This document shows, piece by piece, positions 35,146-50,475 of a DNA stretch of 64,000 nucleotides. The notes beneath the pieces are model-generated. The model was not told where the DNA came from and did no database searches. It worked only from the letters and a program-made list of their open reading frames with translations. The stretch spans positions 124,001 to 188,000 of the forward strand of contig NZ_BAJV01000004.1 in assembly GCF_000613885.1 (NCBI RefSeq), given 5' to 3'. The translations under genes and the position numbers were made by a program. The DNA is from Asaia prunellae JCM 25354 (lineage in GTDB: Bacteria > Pseudomonadota > Alphaproteobacteria > Acetobacterales > Acetobacteraceae). Position 1 is the first letter of the stretch. Each line of letters starts with the position of its first letter.

Positions 35146-36867
35146 ATGTCAGTTTTCAATGCTCTTACGACAGCGGTCAGCGGCATCAACGCGCAATCAA
35201 CGGCCTTTACCAATCTGAGCAATAACATCGCGAACAGCCAGACTGTCGGCTACAAGGCGGATACGACTGCTTTTCAGGATTTTGTAGCTGGTTCACTTGT
35301 CGGCAGCACGGCTTCTGCCGACGTGTCTGACTCGGTCTCGGCCGTTACAGTGCAGCATGTCGATAATCAGGGTACGCCGACAAGCAGCAGCAATAGTCTG
35401 GCTTCAGCCATCTCAGGCAACGGCCTGTTCGTTGTCTCAAAGCCGACAGGCGCAACAAATAGCAGCACGACTCAATTCCAGGATCGGAATTATTTTACCC
35501 GCAACGGCGAATTCAGCAAAAACAGCCAAGGGTATCTGGTCAATACAAGCGGTTATTACCTGAACGGCTATATGGTCGACCCAGCCACAGGGCAACTCGG
35601 CAATTCGCTCAGCGCCATCAATGTCGATAATGTTGACTATCGTCCGCCCCAGACAAGTGCGATAACGCTGACAGCTACCGTGGGTAAGATTCCTGCAGAT
35701 ACCTCAAAATATGAGGCCGAGAGCTACACTACTGCACCTGCAACAGTTTACGATGCCAATGCAACGGCGCATCACGTCGCCCTGACCTGGAACCAAAGTG
35801 AAACCAACCCTCTCGTGTGGACCGTAAGCGCCTACGATACGGACGGCAAGAACACGATCAATCTGGCTGACAATACCTATAATGTCACCTTCAACAGCAA
35901 TGGCACGCTTGCAGATGTAACCGATTCATCAGGCAAGAGCATAGGCTCTACAACGAGCGGGGCCGCCGTCACATTACCGATCACGGCATCATACGATGCC
36001 ACTTCCACCCAGACGATGACCCTGTCTCTTGGGACAATCGGTGGCACCAGTGGTACCATTATGACGTCATCGACAGGAACGGCCAGCAAAAGTGCCGCAT
36101 CGGGTCTCGTACTGACCACTGACACCACGACCGGCGCCAAGACCCTTACCCAGAGTGATGCGCAAATCGGTACAACAACCGGCTCAAATCAGAGTTACAT
36201 GACAGCGCCAACAACAGTATCCGGCGTTCCTGTCTCCATGCTCTGGACACAGACCTCTGCCTCACCTCCGCGCTGGGATGTATCAGCCGTTAATATGTCT
36301 GACGGCAGTGCTTTAAGCGGAAAAACGTCGATCACTTTCAACGCTGACGGTACCGCCAACGGAGCACCAACATCGATTGCCACCACAATCAATGGCACAG
36401 CATATACAATCTCACTTCCTGCGATGAACAACTCGAAGAGCCCGCTTCTCTCAACCTCAAGCACACTTGGTACGGACACAACCGCACTGACCTCGGACAG
36501 CGTCAATGCAGGCAGCTACGAAGGCGTCCAGATCCAGAGCGACGGTTCGGTCACGGCGCAATTCAGCAATGGTGCGTCCCAGCTCGTGGGGAAAATTGCA
36601 CTTGCGAACTTCAACAACGTCAACGGCCTGAATGCCGTTGATGGCCAGGCCTACACTGCTACCGTAGCTTCAGGTAATCCGACGATCGGCGTTGCCGGTG
36701 CAAATGGTACAGGCACATTATCAGTTGGCTATACGGAATCCTCCACTACCAATCTGACGAGCGATCTTTCTGCACTGATCGTCGCACAAGAGGCTTATTC
36801 GGCCAATACCAAAGTCATTACGACCGCCGATACACTACTCCAGGCTACGATTGCCATGAAGCAATAG
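35146..36867 (+). CDS. flgE: Flagellar hook protein FlgE with two D2-like modules
   Basis: A 573-residue hook protein. The N-terminus is MSVFNALTTAVSGINAQSTAFTNLSNNIANSQTVGYKADTTAFQ with D1 segments (YFTRNGEFSKNSQGYLVNTSGYYLNGYM), and the C-terminus is YTESSTTNLTSDLSALIVAQEAYSANTKVITTADTLLQATIAMKQ. Between them, residues about 171-308 and 339-452 look like two related beta domains (HHVALTWNQSETNPLVWTVSAYDTDG; VPVSMLWTQTSASPPRWDVSAVNMSDG). This makes it longer than the common 400-residue FlgE. GAGG lies eight bases before ATG. The same two-module unit recurs in the protein at 47249-49000. A hairpin follows the stop. Confidence 0.93.
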   Translation: MSVFNALTTAVSGINAQSTAFTNLSNNIANSQTVGYKADTTAFQDFVAGSLVGSTASADVSDSVSAVTVQHVDNQGTPTSSSNSLASAISGNGLFVVSKPTGATNSSTTQFQDRNYFTRNGEFSKNSQGYLVNTSGYYLNGYMVDPATGQLGNSLSAINVDNVDYRPPQTSAITLTATVGKIPADTSKYEAESYTTAPATVYDANATAHHVALTWNQSETNPLVWTVSAYDTDGKNTINLADNTYNVTFNSNGTLADVTDSSGKSIGSTTSGAAVTLPITASYDATSTQTMTLSLGTIGGTSGTIMTSSTGTASKSAASGLVLTTDTTTGAKTLTQSDAQIGTTTGSNQSYMTAPTTVSGVPVSMLWTQTSASPPRWDVSAVNMSDGSALSGKTSITFNADGTANGAPTSIATTINGTAYTISLPAMNNSKSPLLSTSSTLGTDTTALTSDSVNAGSYEGVQIQSDGSVTAQFSNGASQLVGKIALANFNNVNGLNAVDGQAYTATVASGNPTIGVAGANGTGTLSVGYTESSTTNLTSDLSALIVAQEAYSANTKVITTADTLLQATIAMKQ

Positions 36868-44816: not shown

Positions 44817-47003
44817 TTGGATACCGCGAAAGGCTCTCCTGACCCCGGATCTCACAAGGCATATCCCGGCAAAGCTGTCACAACCAAGCTTTTTTCGGCG
44901 CTTTCAGGCCAGATGACACGCGCTTCGTCATCATGGCGCAGCGGCAGCTACAAATCCTCATGGCGAGCGCCATTCCTGGCACCGATGTGGGTCTTGCTAT
45001 CGGTGTTCTGTTACTTTTATCCATTCTGATCATTCCACTTCCGACATTTATTCTGGATATGGGTCTTTCATTATCCATAACCTCTTCCGTCCTTGTACTG
45101 ATGGTGTCGCTGTTCCTGGAACGCCCTATCGAATTCACCTCATTTCCAACCCTGTTGCTTCTGACAACGCTTTTGCGCCTCTCTCTGGAAATTGCGACCA
45201 CACGTCTCATTCTCAGCCATGGCAGCGAGAACCTACGCCGCTGGCCATGTGGTGGCAGCATTTGGCGGCTTTCTGATGGGTGGCGATGTCGTTATCGGCG
45301 GTATTGTTTTCAGCATTCTGCTTGTTGTGAATTTCATGGTCATTACGAAGGGATCAGGACGTATTGCAGAAGTTGCAGCACGCTTCTTTCTCGACTCAAT
45401 GCCAGGCAAACAGATGGCCATTGACGCAGAGCTCTCCTCTGGTGCCATCAATGACCGTACGGCCCGCCTGCGACGCAGGGAGCTGGAAGATGAAAGTTCG
45501 TTCTACGGTGCCATGGATGGTGCAGCGAAATTCGTACGCGGCGATGCTATCGCAGCACTTATCATCACAGCCATCAATATCGTAGGCGGCCTTGCCATTG
45601 GTGTGCTGCGCCACGGTATGCCAATAAGTGATGCCGCCAGCACTTTCACGACACTGACAGTGGGTGACGGGCTTGTCTCGCAAATCCCGGCACTCCTCGT
45701 TTCAACAGCGTCAGGTATCGTGGTCACCAAAGGCGGTACCGCCGGCTCTGCTGACGTCACCCTGGTCCGACAGCTTGGTGGCAACCCGAAACCCATGGCG
45801 ATGGCCGCAATTCTTTCAGGCTGTTTCGCCCTGATGCCTGGCCTGCCCGCCTTGCCTTTCCTCGCCATTTCAGGATTGGCCGGCACGGCTGCCTGGTGGC
45901 GATGGAAAGTACCGGTTCAGGACAGTGCAGAAAGCGAGGCAAGCGAGGTCGCTCCTCCTCCAAATGCCACACCGATTTCGGAAGTGCTCAAGCTGGATCT
46001 TCTCCGTCTCGAACTCGGCTTCGGCCTGCTGCCCATGACCAATGGTGATAATGCCCAGCTCACCGAACAGATCAAGGCATTGAGGCGTACCATTGCTGCA
46101 GAAATGGGGTTCATCACACCACCGATACGCATACAGGATAATATCCTTCTGCCTTCAGAACGCTACGTCATCAAACTCAAGGAAATCGCGATTGGTTCGG
46201 GAGAAGTCAAACCCGGTCGGCTGATGGCCATGACCCCCTCGGGTGGGATCCCGGAGCTTGAAGGCGAACGAACGACAGAACCGGCTTTTGGCCTGCCTGC
46301 CGTCTGGATTGCACCGGCACTCAAGCCACGCGCTGTGGCCATGAAATGTACCGTTGTCGATCCGGCCAGCGTACTCGTGACCCATCTCAGTGAACTCGTC
46401 AGGCAGAACCTGCCTGATCTGCTGACCTATGTAGCAACCCAGGCCTTGCTCGACGAACTGCCACGCGATCAGCAGAAACTGGTCAGTGATCTGATCCCGT
46501 CCCAGGTGACTCTCAGCACGGTACAACGTGTGCTGCAATCGCTTCTGGCCGAGCGTGTGTCCATACGTGACCTTCCTACAATCCTTGAAAGCATTCAGGA
46601 AGGGAGCGGTCTCGGCATGCGCGGGATCCAGGCATTGACCAGCCACGTACGCATCCGCCTGTCGAGACAGATATGCAGCGGACTGGAAGGCCCCGGGGGC
46701 TATATCCCGATGGTCACCCTCTCTCCGGAATGGGAGAATGATTTTGCGACGCATATTGCCGGTCAGGGAGACGAAAGACGTCTGGCCATGCCGCCATCAA
46801 TGCTGAACCGTTTTGTCGGCAAGCTGCGCGATGCCTTTAATACCGTTTCGGCAAGCGGCGAGGTTCCTGTCATTGTTGTTTCGTCAACCGTGCGAGATCC
46901 CATGCGCTCTATCGTCGAGCGGGTTCGCCCGACCGTACCAGTCCTTTCCCAGGCTGAAATCTATCCACGCGCCCGGATCAAAACGATCGAGACAATAAGC
47001 TGA
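44817..47003 (+). CDS. flhA: Flagellar export gate protein FlhA, broken by two frameshifts
   Basis: About 728 residues after repair. TTG at 44817 (after AGGGAAACGG) leads a short N-terminus. A T6 run at 44890-44895 seems one base short; correcting it joins to FRPDDTRFVIMAQRQLQ and the membrane part (GLAIGVLLLLSILIIPLPTFILDMGLSLSITSSVLVLMVSLFLERPIEFTSFPTLLLLTTLLRLSLEIATTRLIL). A second shift at 45230-45231 (one extra A) returns to TYAAGHVVAAFGGFLMGGDVVIG, VITKGSGRIAEVAARFFLDSMPGKQMAIDAELSSG (FHIPEP region) and the cytoplasmic domain. FlhA forms the export gate and docks FliI and chaperones. Confidence 0.9.
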
Positions 47004-47248: not shown

Positions 47249-49000
47249 ATGACCATCACGAATGTCTCCCCGGTAGCGAGCTATCTATCAGCGATCAAGG
47301 ACGAAGCTCTAGCCGCGTCCAATTATGCCAAGACTGATATTGCCACCAAACAGGCTGTAGCCGCTTTCGAGAAGAAAGCATCAGGCATTACATCTGCAGA
47401 TGCCCTTCTGAAGGATTATTCCTCACTCAAACTCGTTCTTGGGGCTTTCGGGATGGAGGGCTACAGCAATGCAACCGCTCTCATCAAGGACCTGCTGACA
47501 CAGGACCCGAGCTCAAGCACTTCACTGGCACGCACGTCCCAGAACGCAACCTGGCTCGCTTTTGCTGATGCTTTCAAGGTCTGGGGGCAAAACAAGGGCG
47601 GCGCCTCACAGACAACTTTTATCAATGGCAGCGGTTCCACCGCTCTGAGTACCACCTACACGCCAACAGACACGATTACTCTTACCGCTACCCTTCCTTC
47701 TGCAAGCGGGAAAGGGCAGAGTTACCTATCCCCGAGCATTACGGCCTATGATGACCTCTCAGCTCCCCATCAGATCGCCCTCAAATGGCTTCAGAGCAGC
47801 ACAGATCCTCTGAGCTGGAATGTGTCTGCCTATGATGCAGAGGGCAATGCCCTCGTCAGTAACAACGCTTTCCAGGTCACATTCAATCAGGATGGCACAC
47901 TGGCTTCAGCAACGAATGCCCTGACAGGTGCCGCCGTTTCTGCCAGCACCTCCGGCACTCTATCCCTTCCGATCACACTGAACGATGCCAATGGAACGGC
48001 TCAGGCGATCTCTCTTTCCCTTGGCAAGGTGGGTACAACGGACGGCGTCTCGATGGCGGGAAGCAGCTTTCAATCAAGCAGCACAAGCCAGACCGTCAGT
48101 CTGCAGAATGCAGGTTCTTCAGGCACAACCCTGACCATGCCTTCAGCAACAATCGGCACCCTCGGGGGGACGGGCCAGACCTATCTTACGGCCCCGTTTG
48201 ACCCTAGCCAGTCCTTTAATGACGCAAATAACGTGACACTTGGCCGTACCTATCTGTCCGTGAAATGGGCGCAGGATCCAACCTCGTCCGACACCTGGAA
48301 CGCCTACATTGTCGATCCGTTCGGCTCCAGCGTCAGCAGTACACTGGTCTCGGCGAATTTCGACGATTCTGGCAATCTTCTCAAGGTCAATGGTCAATAT
48401 ACTCACGATATTCCTGCACTCACGGCAACGGTCAATGGCGTTCGCTATACCGTCTCACTGCAAGCGCCGTCTCTGTCGACCAGCGCAGCACCGGTCCAGA
48501 CAGCATTGACCACAGACAGTACCGTCAAAAGTACGATCAATGGTGTTTCCGTAAATCAGATCATCTCGGATTATGAGAAACAGCAATTCGAGACAAATGA
48601 CGATAATACCGATAGCGGCGTTGGCAATGCTCTGTATTTTACCAGAAAAATGTCAGGCGTCACATCAATGAACCAGTTGATGTCAGACAAGACATTGCTG
48701 AAAGTGGTCGAAACAGTGTCAGGATACGATCCCGCCACATTCGGCGCGCTTAACTATACTCAGCAGCTACGCATGTTGTCTTCGAAAATTGATTTCAGCA
48801 AACTCAAGACACCGGAGCAGATACAGAAATACGCCGAACAATATCTGACAATGCTGCAAATAACCCCTCAACCTGCCGATACGCCTGCCAATATGCTGGA
48901 TCTGTTTGGAGGCGACACGTCGAAATCCGGCATACTCGCCCTCTTCAGCGACAATGACTCGTCCTCATCCTCCTCAAGCATTTACTCGGGCCTGTTTTGA
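47249..49000 (+). CDS. DUF1217 flagellar protein with two hook-like (FlgE D2) modules inserted
   Basis: A 583-residue protein. Residues 1-115 (YLSAIKDEALAASNYAKTDIATKQAVAAFEKKASGITSADALLKDYSSLKLVLGAFGME) and 440-555 (VNQIISDYEKQQFE; ALYFTRKMSGVTSMNQLMSDKTLLKVVETVSGYDP) are the two halves of a DUF1217 domain. Between them lie two beta modules (about 141-272 and 307-432). These match those of FlgE: IALKWLQSSTDPLSWNVSAYDAEG against FlgE VALTWNQSETNPLVWTVSAYDTDG. DUF1217 proteins occur in alphaproteobacterial flagellar loci, function unknown. The hook-like modules suggest contact with the hook. It runs directly into fliI. Confidence 0.78.
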   Translation: MTITNVSPVASYLSAIKDEALAASNYAKTDIATKQAVAAFEKKASGITSADALLKDYSSLKLVLGAFGMEGYSNATALIKDLLTQDPSSSTSLARTSQNATWLAFADAFKVWGQNKGGASQTTFINGSGSTALSTTYTPTDTITLTATLPSASGKGQSYLSPSITAYDDLSAPHQIALKWLQSSTDPLSWNVSAYDAEGNALVSNNAFQVTFNQDGTLASATNALTGAAVSASTSGTLSLPITLNDANGTAQAISLSLGKVGTTDGVSMAGSSFQSSSTSQTVSLQNAGSSGTTLTMPSATIGTLGGTGQTYLTAPFDPSQSFNDANNVTLGRTYLSVKWAQDPTSSDTWNAYIVDPFGSSVSSTLVSANFDDSGNLLKVNGQYTHDIPALTATVNGVRYTVSLQAPSLSTSAAPVQTALTTDSTVKSTINGVSVNQIISDYEKQQFETNDDNTDSGVGNALYFTRKMSGVTSMNQLMSDKTLLKVVETVSGYDPATFGALNYTQQLRMLSSKIDFSKLKTPEQIQKYAEQYLTMLQITPQPADTPANMLDLFGGDTSKSGILALFSDNDSSSSSSSIYSGLF

Positions 49001-50475
49001 CCTCCTTACAAGACGATACGCCCCCGCACCTCCATCAGGCAGATTTACACGATGCTTCAGGCAGGGAAGCGGTTTTTTCCGATGCGATCTCTACTCTGAA
49101 AACAATTGCCAGCAATATTCATGTGTCCCTCGATGATGTTCCCGTAGCCATTCTCGAGGGGCGCATTACAGCAGTTATCGGCCTTTCGGTTACAATTGAA
49201 GGCATGAGCCATCTCACAGGAATTGGAGACCGCCTCACTCTGATGGGTCTTGATGGCCGAGAAACCGATGCCGAGATCATCGGCTTTCGTGGCAAGGAAG
49301 CCATCGCCATGCCATTTGGCCCGCTGGATGGACTGGGTGCAGGATGCAAGGCAGTATTTCATCTGTATCCAACAGCCCAACGATCGGTCAGAGCCGGTGC
49401 TGCCCTGACCCTCAATGACGGGCTGATCGGACGTGTCATCGATCCTATTGGGTGCCCGATTGACGGTAGACAGCCTCTTTCACCCAAAGGCAGGGCATGC
49501 AATCTCCGAGCCAGGCCACCGGAAGCGGCGTTACGGGCACGGCTGGGGCCGCGCCTGACCCTCGGCGTCAGCGCGCTCGACCTGTTTACGACGTGTCGTG
49601 AAGGCCAGAGACTGGGACTTTTTGCAGGGTCGGGAGTAGGCAAATCGACCTTGATGGGCATGCTGGCCCGCAACTGCGACTGCGATGTTGCCGTCATTGC
49701 CCTTGTCGGTGAAAGAGGACGGGAAGTCCGCGAATTTCTGGAAGATGACCTTGGTTCAGAAGGTCTGGCCAAAGCTGTAGTCGTCGTCGCTACCTCCGAC
49801 GCCCCTCCCCTGATGCGTCGTGAAGCTGCCTATACGGCCACTACAATCGCAGAGTATTTTCGTGACCAGGGAAAGTCCGTCCTCATTCTTATGGACAGCG
49901 TCACGCGGTTCTGCCACGCCCTGCGTGAAATCGGCCTTTCTTCGGGAGAGCCCCCTGCAACACGAGGGTACCCGCCAAGCGTGTTTGCCGAGCTTCCGCG
50001 GCTGCTGGAAAGAGCTGGCCCCGGATTACCACTCGATGGAAAGCCAGCCGGACAAATTACGGCAATCTATTCGGTTCTGGTTGAAGGCGACGATCACAAT
50101 GAACCTGTCGCTGATGCCGTACGGGGCATACTCGACGGCCATGTCGTCATGGACAGAAGAATTGCCGAAGCAGGCCGGTATCCCGCTATCAATGTCCTGC
50201 GCTCCCTTTCCAGAACAGCCTCGGGATGCAACACCCCGGAAGAAAATTTTCTTGTGCAGGAAGCTCGGGCCAATATGGCTATCTGGGACGATATCCAGGA
50301 TGTCGTTCAGCTTGGAGCCTATCGCGAAGGCAATGATGCACGCTCTGACCTGGCGCTTCGCCTAGCTCCCCAACTCGAAACAATCCTCCGGCAATCGCGT
50401 CCCGAGTACCGATCGCTGGAAGACAGCTTTCTGGCTCTTCGCAATGTTCTGGCATCACAGGGGATACATCAATGA
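48997..50475 (+). CDS. fliI: Flagellum-specific ATPase FliI
   Basis: A 492-residue F1-beta-like ATPase. Walker A GLFAGSGVGKSTL, Walker B region SVLILMDSVTRFCHALREI, VIALVGERGREVREFLEDDL and SLSRTASGCNTPEE are all clear. The C-terminal region includes YREGNDARSDLALRLAPQLE. It powers unfolding and entry of flagellar export substrates at the membrane with FliH, FliJ and FlhA; no fliH is seen here. The TTG at 48997 overlaps the upstream stop (TTGA), and an ATGA overlap couples it to fliJ. The first about 30 residues are poorly conserved, so the start may lie a little downstream. Confidence 0.93.
   Translation: MTSLQDDTPPHLHQADLHDASGREAVFSDAISTLKTIASNIHVSLDDVPVAILEGRITAVIGLSVTIEGMSHLTGIGDRLTLMGLDGRETDAEIIGFRGKEAIAMPFGPLDGLGAGCKAVFHLYPTAQRSVRAGAALTLNDGLIGRVIDPIGCPIDGRQPLSPKGRACNLRARPPEAALRARLGPRLTLGVSALDLFTTCREGQRLGLFAGSGVGKSTLMGMLARNCDCDVAVIALVGERGREVREFLEDDLGSEGLAKAVVVVATSDAPPLMRREAAYTATTIAEYFRDQGKSVLILMDSVTRFCHALREIGLSSGEPPATRGYPPSVFAELPRLLERAGPGLPLDGKPAGQITAIYSVLVEGDDHNEPVADAVRGILDGHVVMDRRIAEAGRYPAINVLRSLSRTASGCNTPEENFLVQEARANMAIWDDIQDVVQLGAYREGNDARSDLALRLAPQLETILRQSRPEYRSLEDSFLALRNVLASQGIHQ

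Follow-up and report, generated by a model that had tools for sequence, protein, structure and literature searches.

The DUF1217 gene and its neighborhood

The window analyzed here, a stretch of 64,000 nucleotides from Asaia prunellae JCM 25354, contains on its forward strand a gene (47249–49000) for a flagellar protein of the DUF1217 family that carries an insert of hook-protein modules. All features of the window described below lie on the same strand. The protein is 583 residues long and was assigned to the family by Pfam (PF06748, E = 1.8e-37), with a score of 129.2 bits against a cut-off of 22.9, in two separate stretches. The N-terminal helical half (residues 1–120; 47249–47608) was delimited by alignment to uninserted relatives, and helices were present there in a low-confidence model. 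The C-terminal helical half (residues 434–583; 48548–48997) matched both PF06748 and the structure 2o8s. The inserted block, comprising approximately residues 126–432 (47624–48544), is missing from the uninserted relatives and is homologous to FlgE. It consists of module A (residues 137–285; 47657–48103), which corresponds to the D2 domain of FlgE, and module B (residues 286–432; 48104–48544), a second FlgE-derived module. The linker between the two DUF1217 halves has 313 residues in the window protein, compared to 7 residues in 10 of 11 uninserted relatives and 24 in the other one (G143).

The structure 2o8s (AGR_C_984p), itself a DUF1217 protein, matched residues 433–557 of the window protein with an E-value of 2.7e-10, and a profile of four uninserted relatives with an E-value of 6.8e-27 across both halves. 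The window protein thus shares with other members of PF06748 both helical halves as well as the location of its gene beside fliI, and differs from the uninserted members in that its linker contains hook-derived modules totalling about 305 residues. We also considered an internal duplication as the origin of the two halves, which received no support: BLASTP found no match between the N and C halves, and hhalign gave a probability of 28% (E = 6e-4) over 26 columns. There were no tandem DNA repeats in the gene at the default score. A promoter scan returned 3 sites compared to a shuffle mean of 1.6, and a terminator scan returned 2 compared to 1.7.

The gene for the export ATPase, fliI (48997–50475), follows directly on the 3′ side, with its called ORF overlapping the stop codon of DUF1217. 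The same neighbor was found in all 25 loci compared, with the fliI start located between −60 and +178 nt from the DUF1217 stop. On the upstream side lies flhA (44933–47003). In 10 of the 13 loci that carry the FlgE-type insert, flhA ends 149–255 nt upstream of the DUF1217 gene, while the distance is ≈1.8–1.9 kb in the other three, all of which are Asaia (G008, G002 and G005). Among the non-carriers, flhA was found 168 nt upstream in one genome (G387) and was not found upstream in the other 11, for which 0.4 to >11 kb was compared, except in G361, where it is ≈9 kb away on the opposite strand. In Asaia G002, flhA and the DUF1217 gene are separated by an ORF of ≈557 residues (L085, 14127–15915) that by eye resembles a chemotaxis-type sensor, and the gap is of a similar size in G008 and G005.

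In the window, flhA is read in two frames, with a frameshift near position 45230, whereas it occupies a single frame in ten relatives. Either the gene is broken in this strain or the assembly contains an error. If the frameshift is real, the strain would probably be unable to export flagellar proteins.

Homology of the inserted block to FlgE

The hook protein FlgE, which represents the family from which the block came, is encoded in the same window (35146–36867; 573 residues). Its two middle modules, A (residues 165–330; 35638–36135) and B (residues 331–466; 36136–36543), were delimited by BLASTP and profile–profile comparison. BLASTP aligned residues 137–441 of the DUF1217 protein with residues 165–466 of FlgE, with 36% identity over 328 columns and E = 2e-32, corresponding to a homologous block of about 305 residues. 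As a control, the block scored 115 bits against the real FlgE middle, but only 19 bits against the reversed sequence and a maximum of 22 bits against 300 shuffled FlgE middles, 183 of which gave any match.

For a more sensitive comparison of the individual modules, profiles comprising 12 DUF1217 inserts and 19 FlgE middles were aligned with hhalign. Module A matched FlgE module A with E = 2.3e-47, and module B matched FlgE module B with E = 2.4e-23, while the cross pairs were weaker (1e-15 and 4e-7), which shows that the order of the modules in FlgE has been kept in the insert. Modules A and B are also similar to each other, both within the DUF1217 protein (E = 6e-10 for module B against module A) and within FlgE. 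Together with the conserved order, this resemblance indicates that the duplication of the modules preceded the capture, and that both were taken up together and in order.

The FlgE_D2 domain (PF07559) was recognized by Pfam at residues 161–282 of the DUF1217 protein (32.7 bits; cut-off 22.7). The NCBIfam model for FlgE matched in the same place with 37.8 bits, far under its own cut-off of 365. In the window FlgE, PF07559 did not show in the same Pfam run but did so in module A in the genome search. FlgE and the DUF1217 gene are the only carriers of the modules in the genome of the window. The remainder of the DUF1217 protein is distinct from FlgE: the terminal domains Flg_bb_rod (PF00460), Flg_bbr_C (PF06429) and D1 (PF22692), all of which Pfam detected in the window FlgE, are absent, and the modules are instead located between the two DUF1217 halves.

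The homology of the insert to the middle of FlgE is firm. The first-pass annotation of this DNA, made by eye, had described a non-hook DUF1217 protein split by about 300 residues that form two modules alignable with the two middle modules of FlgE. This description held in every part, including the significant profile–profile match of each module, and the residue ranges that had been given for the modules were correct to within a few residues.

Structure models

The model of the whole protein was weak, with a mean pLDDT of 50, and yielded no usable result for the fold of the DUF1217 core. Residues 137–270 of this model matched FlgE D2 structures with Z = 10.6, and the first 17 rows of the fold search were FlgE, hook, or flagellar complexes with hook, rod or filament tip in their titles. 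When the insert was modeled alone, the mean pLDDT was 60, and ten-residue blocks within the modules mostly ranged from 60 to 83, with some lower. Module A from this model matched FlgE D2 with Z = 11.7; the first 16 rows were flagellar or hook entries, and the next row had a Z of 3.8. For module B, nothing was found above Z = 4.3 in the whole model or Z = 3.8 in the insert model, so the FlgE origin of this module rests on sequence. Structure prediction, which had been put forward in the first-pass annotation as a check on the hook origin, agreed with it for module A and gave no clear fold match for module B. A search of a viral fold library returned no match at E = 0.001.

The window protein therefore has two homologous modules in the same order as the middle of FlgE, one of them with the D2 fold. 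Extra outer domains have reportedly been added to the hook subunit in the FlgE proteins of Campylobacter and Caulobacter. As in the DUF1217 protein, these outer modules sit between conserved terminal parts; unlike in the DUF1217 protein, they are additions to the hook subunit itself.

Distribution of the insert

DUF1217 proteins were surveyed for such inserts, as had been proposed at the outset, in 397 Acetobacteraceae genomes. DUF1217 was present in 300 of these, and the FlgE-type insert was found in at least 13, six belonging to Asaia and seven to a second genus (g43). In g43, 7 of the 12 genomes with a match carried the insert, among the matches listed. Six of nine Asaia genomes have DUF1217, and all six carry the insert. 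These six each contain two FlgE_D2 (PF07559) genes, FlgE and DUF1217, while the three Asaia genomes without DUF1217 contain none. The same architecture was observed in four named Asaia records (A. siamensis, Asaia sp. W19, A. lannensis and A. astilbis). DUF1217 occurred in 11 of 106 genomes of different genera sampled across the class.

The number of modules varies. The DUF1217 protein of one g43 genome, G050, has 1014 residues (L093, 2191–5235, reverse strand) and contains five hook-type modules in succession, four of A type and one of B type, while the FlgE of the same genome has only 468 residues. In all, four carriers (G180, G280, G363 and G050) have such a short FlgE with about one middle module, as judged from the lengths and, for G180 and G050, by alignment. 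The DUF1217 proteins of these genomes nevertheless keep two modules or, in G050, five. The number of modules in FlgE does not track that in the insert. A simple motif count found the modules of the inserts but missed many of those in FlgE, and was not used to count the latter. From the FlgE ORFs of three loci (L087, L090 and L198), FlgE in these genera is ≈440 to 590 residues long, with one or two middle modules by alignment.

Other inserts in the linker

The same linker is occupied by different sequences in other genera. An insert of ≈340 residues is found in g57, g72 and g50, and repeats of another kind are found in g17 and g77. The linker of g95 contains ALTTAQ repeats, detected as PF20080 in G200 (L130, 487–1902, forward strand) and seen by eye in G235 and G289. 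In place of a foreign insert, the 715-residue DUF1217 protein of G361 (L097, 9260–11407, reverse strand) contains extra copies of its own N half, making five N-type stretches in all, and the DUF1217 proteins of g102 are longer still. With such different inserts at the same point in other Acetobacteraceae, the linker looks like a general socket for exchangeable modules. In 12 of the 25 loci compared, the core occurs without such a block: 11 have no large insert, and the twelfth is G361 with its extra DUF1217 stretches.

A hook origin of the inserts of other genera was not supported at the BLAST level. Thirteen inserts were compared with the ORFs at 17 loci that surround FlgE-family matches in 14 genomes, and with low-complexity filtering no match reached E = 0.01, a level at which remote similarity could be missed. 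For the inserts of G064 and G210, searches of the genome of origin and of related ones (6 genomes for G064 and 5 for G210) yielded no convincing other copy, and the stray matches had E-values of 0.03–0.22.

History of the capture

The tree built from 12 inserts and 19 FlgE middles places all the inserts on one side of a branch (100/100). A second branch (100/99) divides the inserts and the FlgE of Asaia, g43 and g61 from four FlgE that are more distant. This tree left out the DUF1217 proteins of G050 and G361, as well as six FlgE of less than 540 residues (G001, G180, G280, G363, G050 and G361). A grouping of the inserts with Asaia FlgE alone was not rejected (p-AU = 0.24), so the exact donor within the FlgE group is not fixed.

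We considered the possibility that the arrangement is an artefact, either an assembly chimera or a recent gene conversion from flgE. The chance of this is close to nil: the same architecture is present in 13 genomes of two genera and in the four named Asaia records, and the window insert matches some FlgE of other genera more strongly than the FlgE of its own genome (5.9e-41 in G362 compared to 2.6e-23). Recent copying or gene conversion from the resident flgE is ruled out by the tree, in which a single branch holds the inserts and none of the FlgE middles compared.

The 13 carriers also lie on one side of a branch in a tree of FliI (72/96, not starred). A tree of the DUF1217 core, from which G361 was omitted, required two changes, but the carriers as one clade were not rejected (p-AU = 0.35). 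The same was true of a tree of the FlgE ends without G001, which also required two changes (p-AU = 0.5 for one clade). The best reading of the trees is one old capture that was passed on with the flagellar locus, and we infer a single gain before the carriers split. The dN/dS of the modules was 0.05–0.43 where dS could be computed, synonymous sites being near saturation in most Asaia pairs; these values indicate that the modules are constrained by purifying selection. This is a real domain capture in an uncharacterized flagellar protein, and no described case of hook modules in a DUF1217 protein was found in the open-licence PMC literature.

Probable export of the DUF1217 protein

FlgB, FlgD, FlgG, FliE, FlgE, FlgK and flagellin are all of exported types. 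According to the main text of Manges and Lampe, the proteins released by A. bogorensis SF2.1 include a “Flagellar hook protein FlgE D2 domain-containing protein” (A0AAN4R0D8) in both conditions, alongside FlgE, hook-associated protein 1 (FlgK) and flagellin, while FlgB, FlgD, FlgG and FliE were released on minimal medium only; the name parts Fli (except FliE), Flh, MotA, MotB and “motor” are absent from that text (PMC12502724). Scraped cells were the source of the sample, a 9,000 × g supernatant, which also contained an ATP synthase subunit as well as ribosomal proteins and others from the cytosol (PMC12502724). Lysis can thus place proteins in this sample, and release is support for export rather than proof of it. 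Since FlgE and DUF1217 are the only two FlgE_D2 genes in each of the Asaia genomes that contain any, A0AAN4R0D8 is very probably the DUF1217 protein, an identity that comes from gene counts and not from sequence. The DUF1217 protein is therefore probably exported, as judged from the main text of the release study.

Possible role of the DUF1217 protein

We consider it reasonably probable that the DUF1217 protein is exported and serves the flagellum as an accessory protein whose surface modules can be exchanged, its FlgE block having been acquired in one old capture. The protein would work through its two conserved helical halves, and the linker that joins them would serve as a socket whose surface modules differ from lineage to lineage. 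The ancestor of the Asaia and g43 flagellar loci would have received two modules from the middle of a FlgE at this point in a single insertion, and the block would have been inherited and kept since, growing to five modules in one genome. Export would occur through the flagellar system, presumably placing the block on the outside of the rod–hook region. This proposal draws on the FlgE homology, the separate branch of the inserts, the purifying selection, the other inserts in the socket and the linkage to fliI. The captured hook domain and the other exchangeable inserts at the same point suggest work outside the cell, on the flagellar axis.

A stronger form of this proposal, and one compatible with it, is that the protein co-assembles with the hook, one of the roles suggested in the first-pass annotation, whose interpretation is borne out in part. 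The block would then pack into or onto the outer D2 layer, and the protein would be a hook-associated part using hook–hook contacts, such as a collar, a sheath patch or an aid to length control or assembly. Both modules are in the FlgE order, module A keeps the D2 fold, the block is under purifying selection, and the protein was probably released with FlgE and FlgK, judging from the main text cited above; docking of the block on the hook is plausible. However, the linker domains of other genera are unlike their own FlgE, and the FlgE of G180, G280, G363 and G050 has about one middle module compared to two or five in the insert. These mismatches weaken a strict hook-matching role. Furthermore, the insert and FlgE form separate branches, with no sign of co-copying. 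On balance, co-assembly is possible but somewhat unlikely. A still bolder reading, which we regard as doubtful, is that DUF1217 is an unrecognized class of exported chassis with an open socket, and that the hook block of Asaia and its relatives joins the hook surface, so that two different proteins with an outer domain in common would build or cap the hook.

The location of the gene, next to fliI in all 25 loci and, in 10 of the 13 carriers, no more than 255 nt from flhA, would also be consistent with a cytoplasmic protein that presents its block to the export machine as a mimic of hook subunits, acting as a checkpoint, decoy or chaperone. We find this improbable, given the probable presence of the protein among released flagellar proteins in the main text of the release study and the very different make-up of the inserts, which fits poorly with mimicry of one partner. 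In addition, hook-type subunits require N-terminal signals for their export, and not D2. It is equally improbable that the modules serve as an adhesin or spacer on the flagellar surface, without a role in assembly, and that the core does nothing but anchor them. The unrelated repeats in the same linker, such as those of PF20080 in g95, and the five-module array of G050 are consistent with such a function, but the 12 loci that have the core without such a block imply that the core must do something alone.

No function for DUF1217 was found described in the open-licence PMC literature, even though the family is common in the Acetobacteraceae and its gene adjoins fliI in the loci compared. SMc03023 of Sinorhizobium meliloti is, we presume, a member of the family. 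This gene is placed among co-regulated flagellar genes of unknown function in the relevant passage of PMC2848241, and the corresponding passage on Brucella locates a DUF1217 gene between motA and flgF and gives its function as unknown (PMC7410920). The hook-derived block provides a concrete route to the function of this uncharacterized family, and would exemplify the movement of a flagellar surface domain from the hook into another protein family. Proteins with no insert, two modules, five modules or other domains constitute natural variants with which the role of DUF1217 could be probed.

By eye, the C-terminus of many DUF1217 proteins, both inserted and uninserted, consists of a tail rich in serine with a short hydrophobic tip after it (-SGLF, -SMF or -LSLFA). 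In the window, this tail is encoded at 48929–48997.
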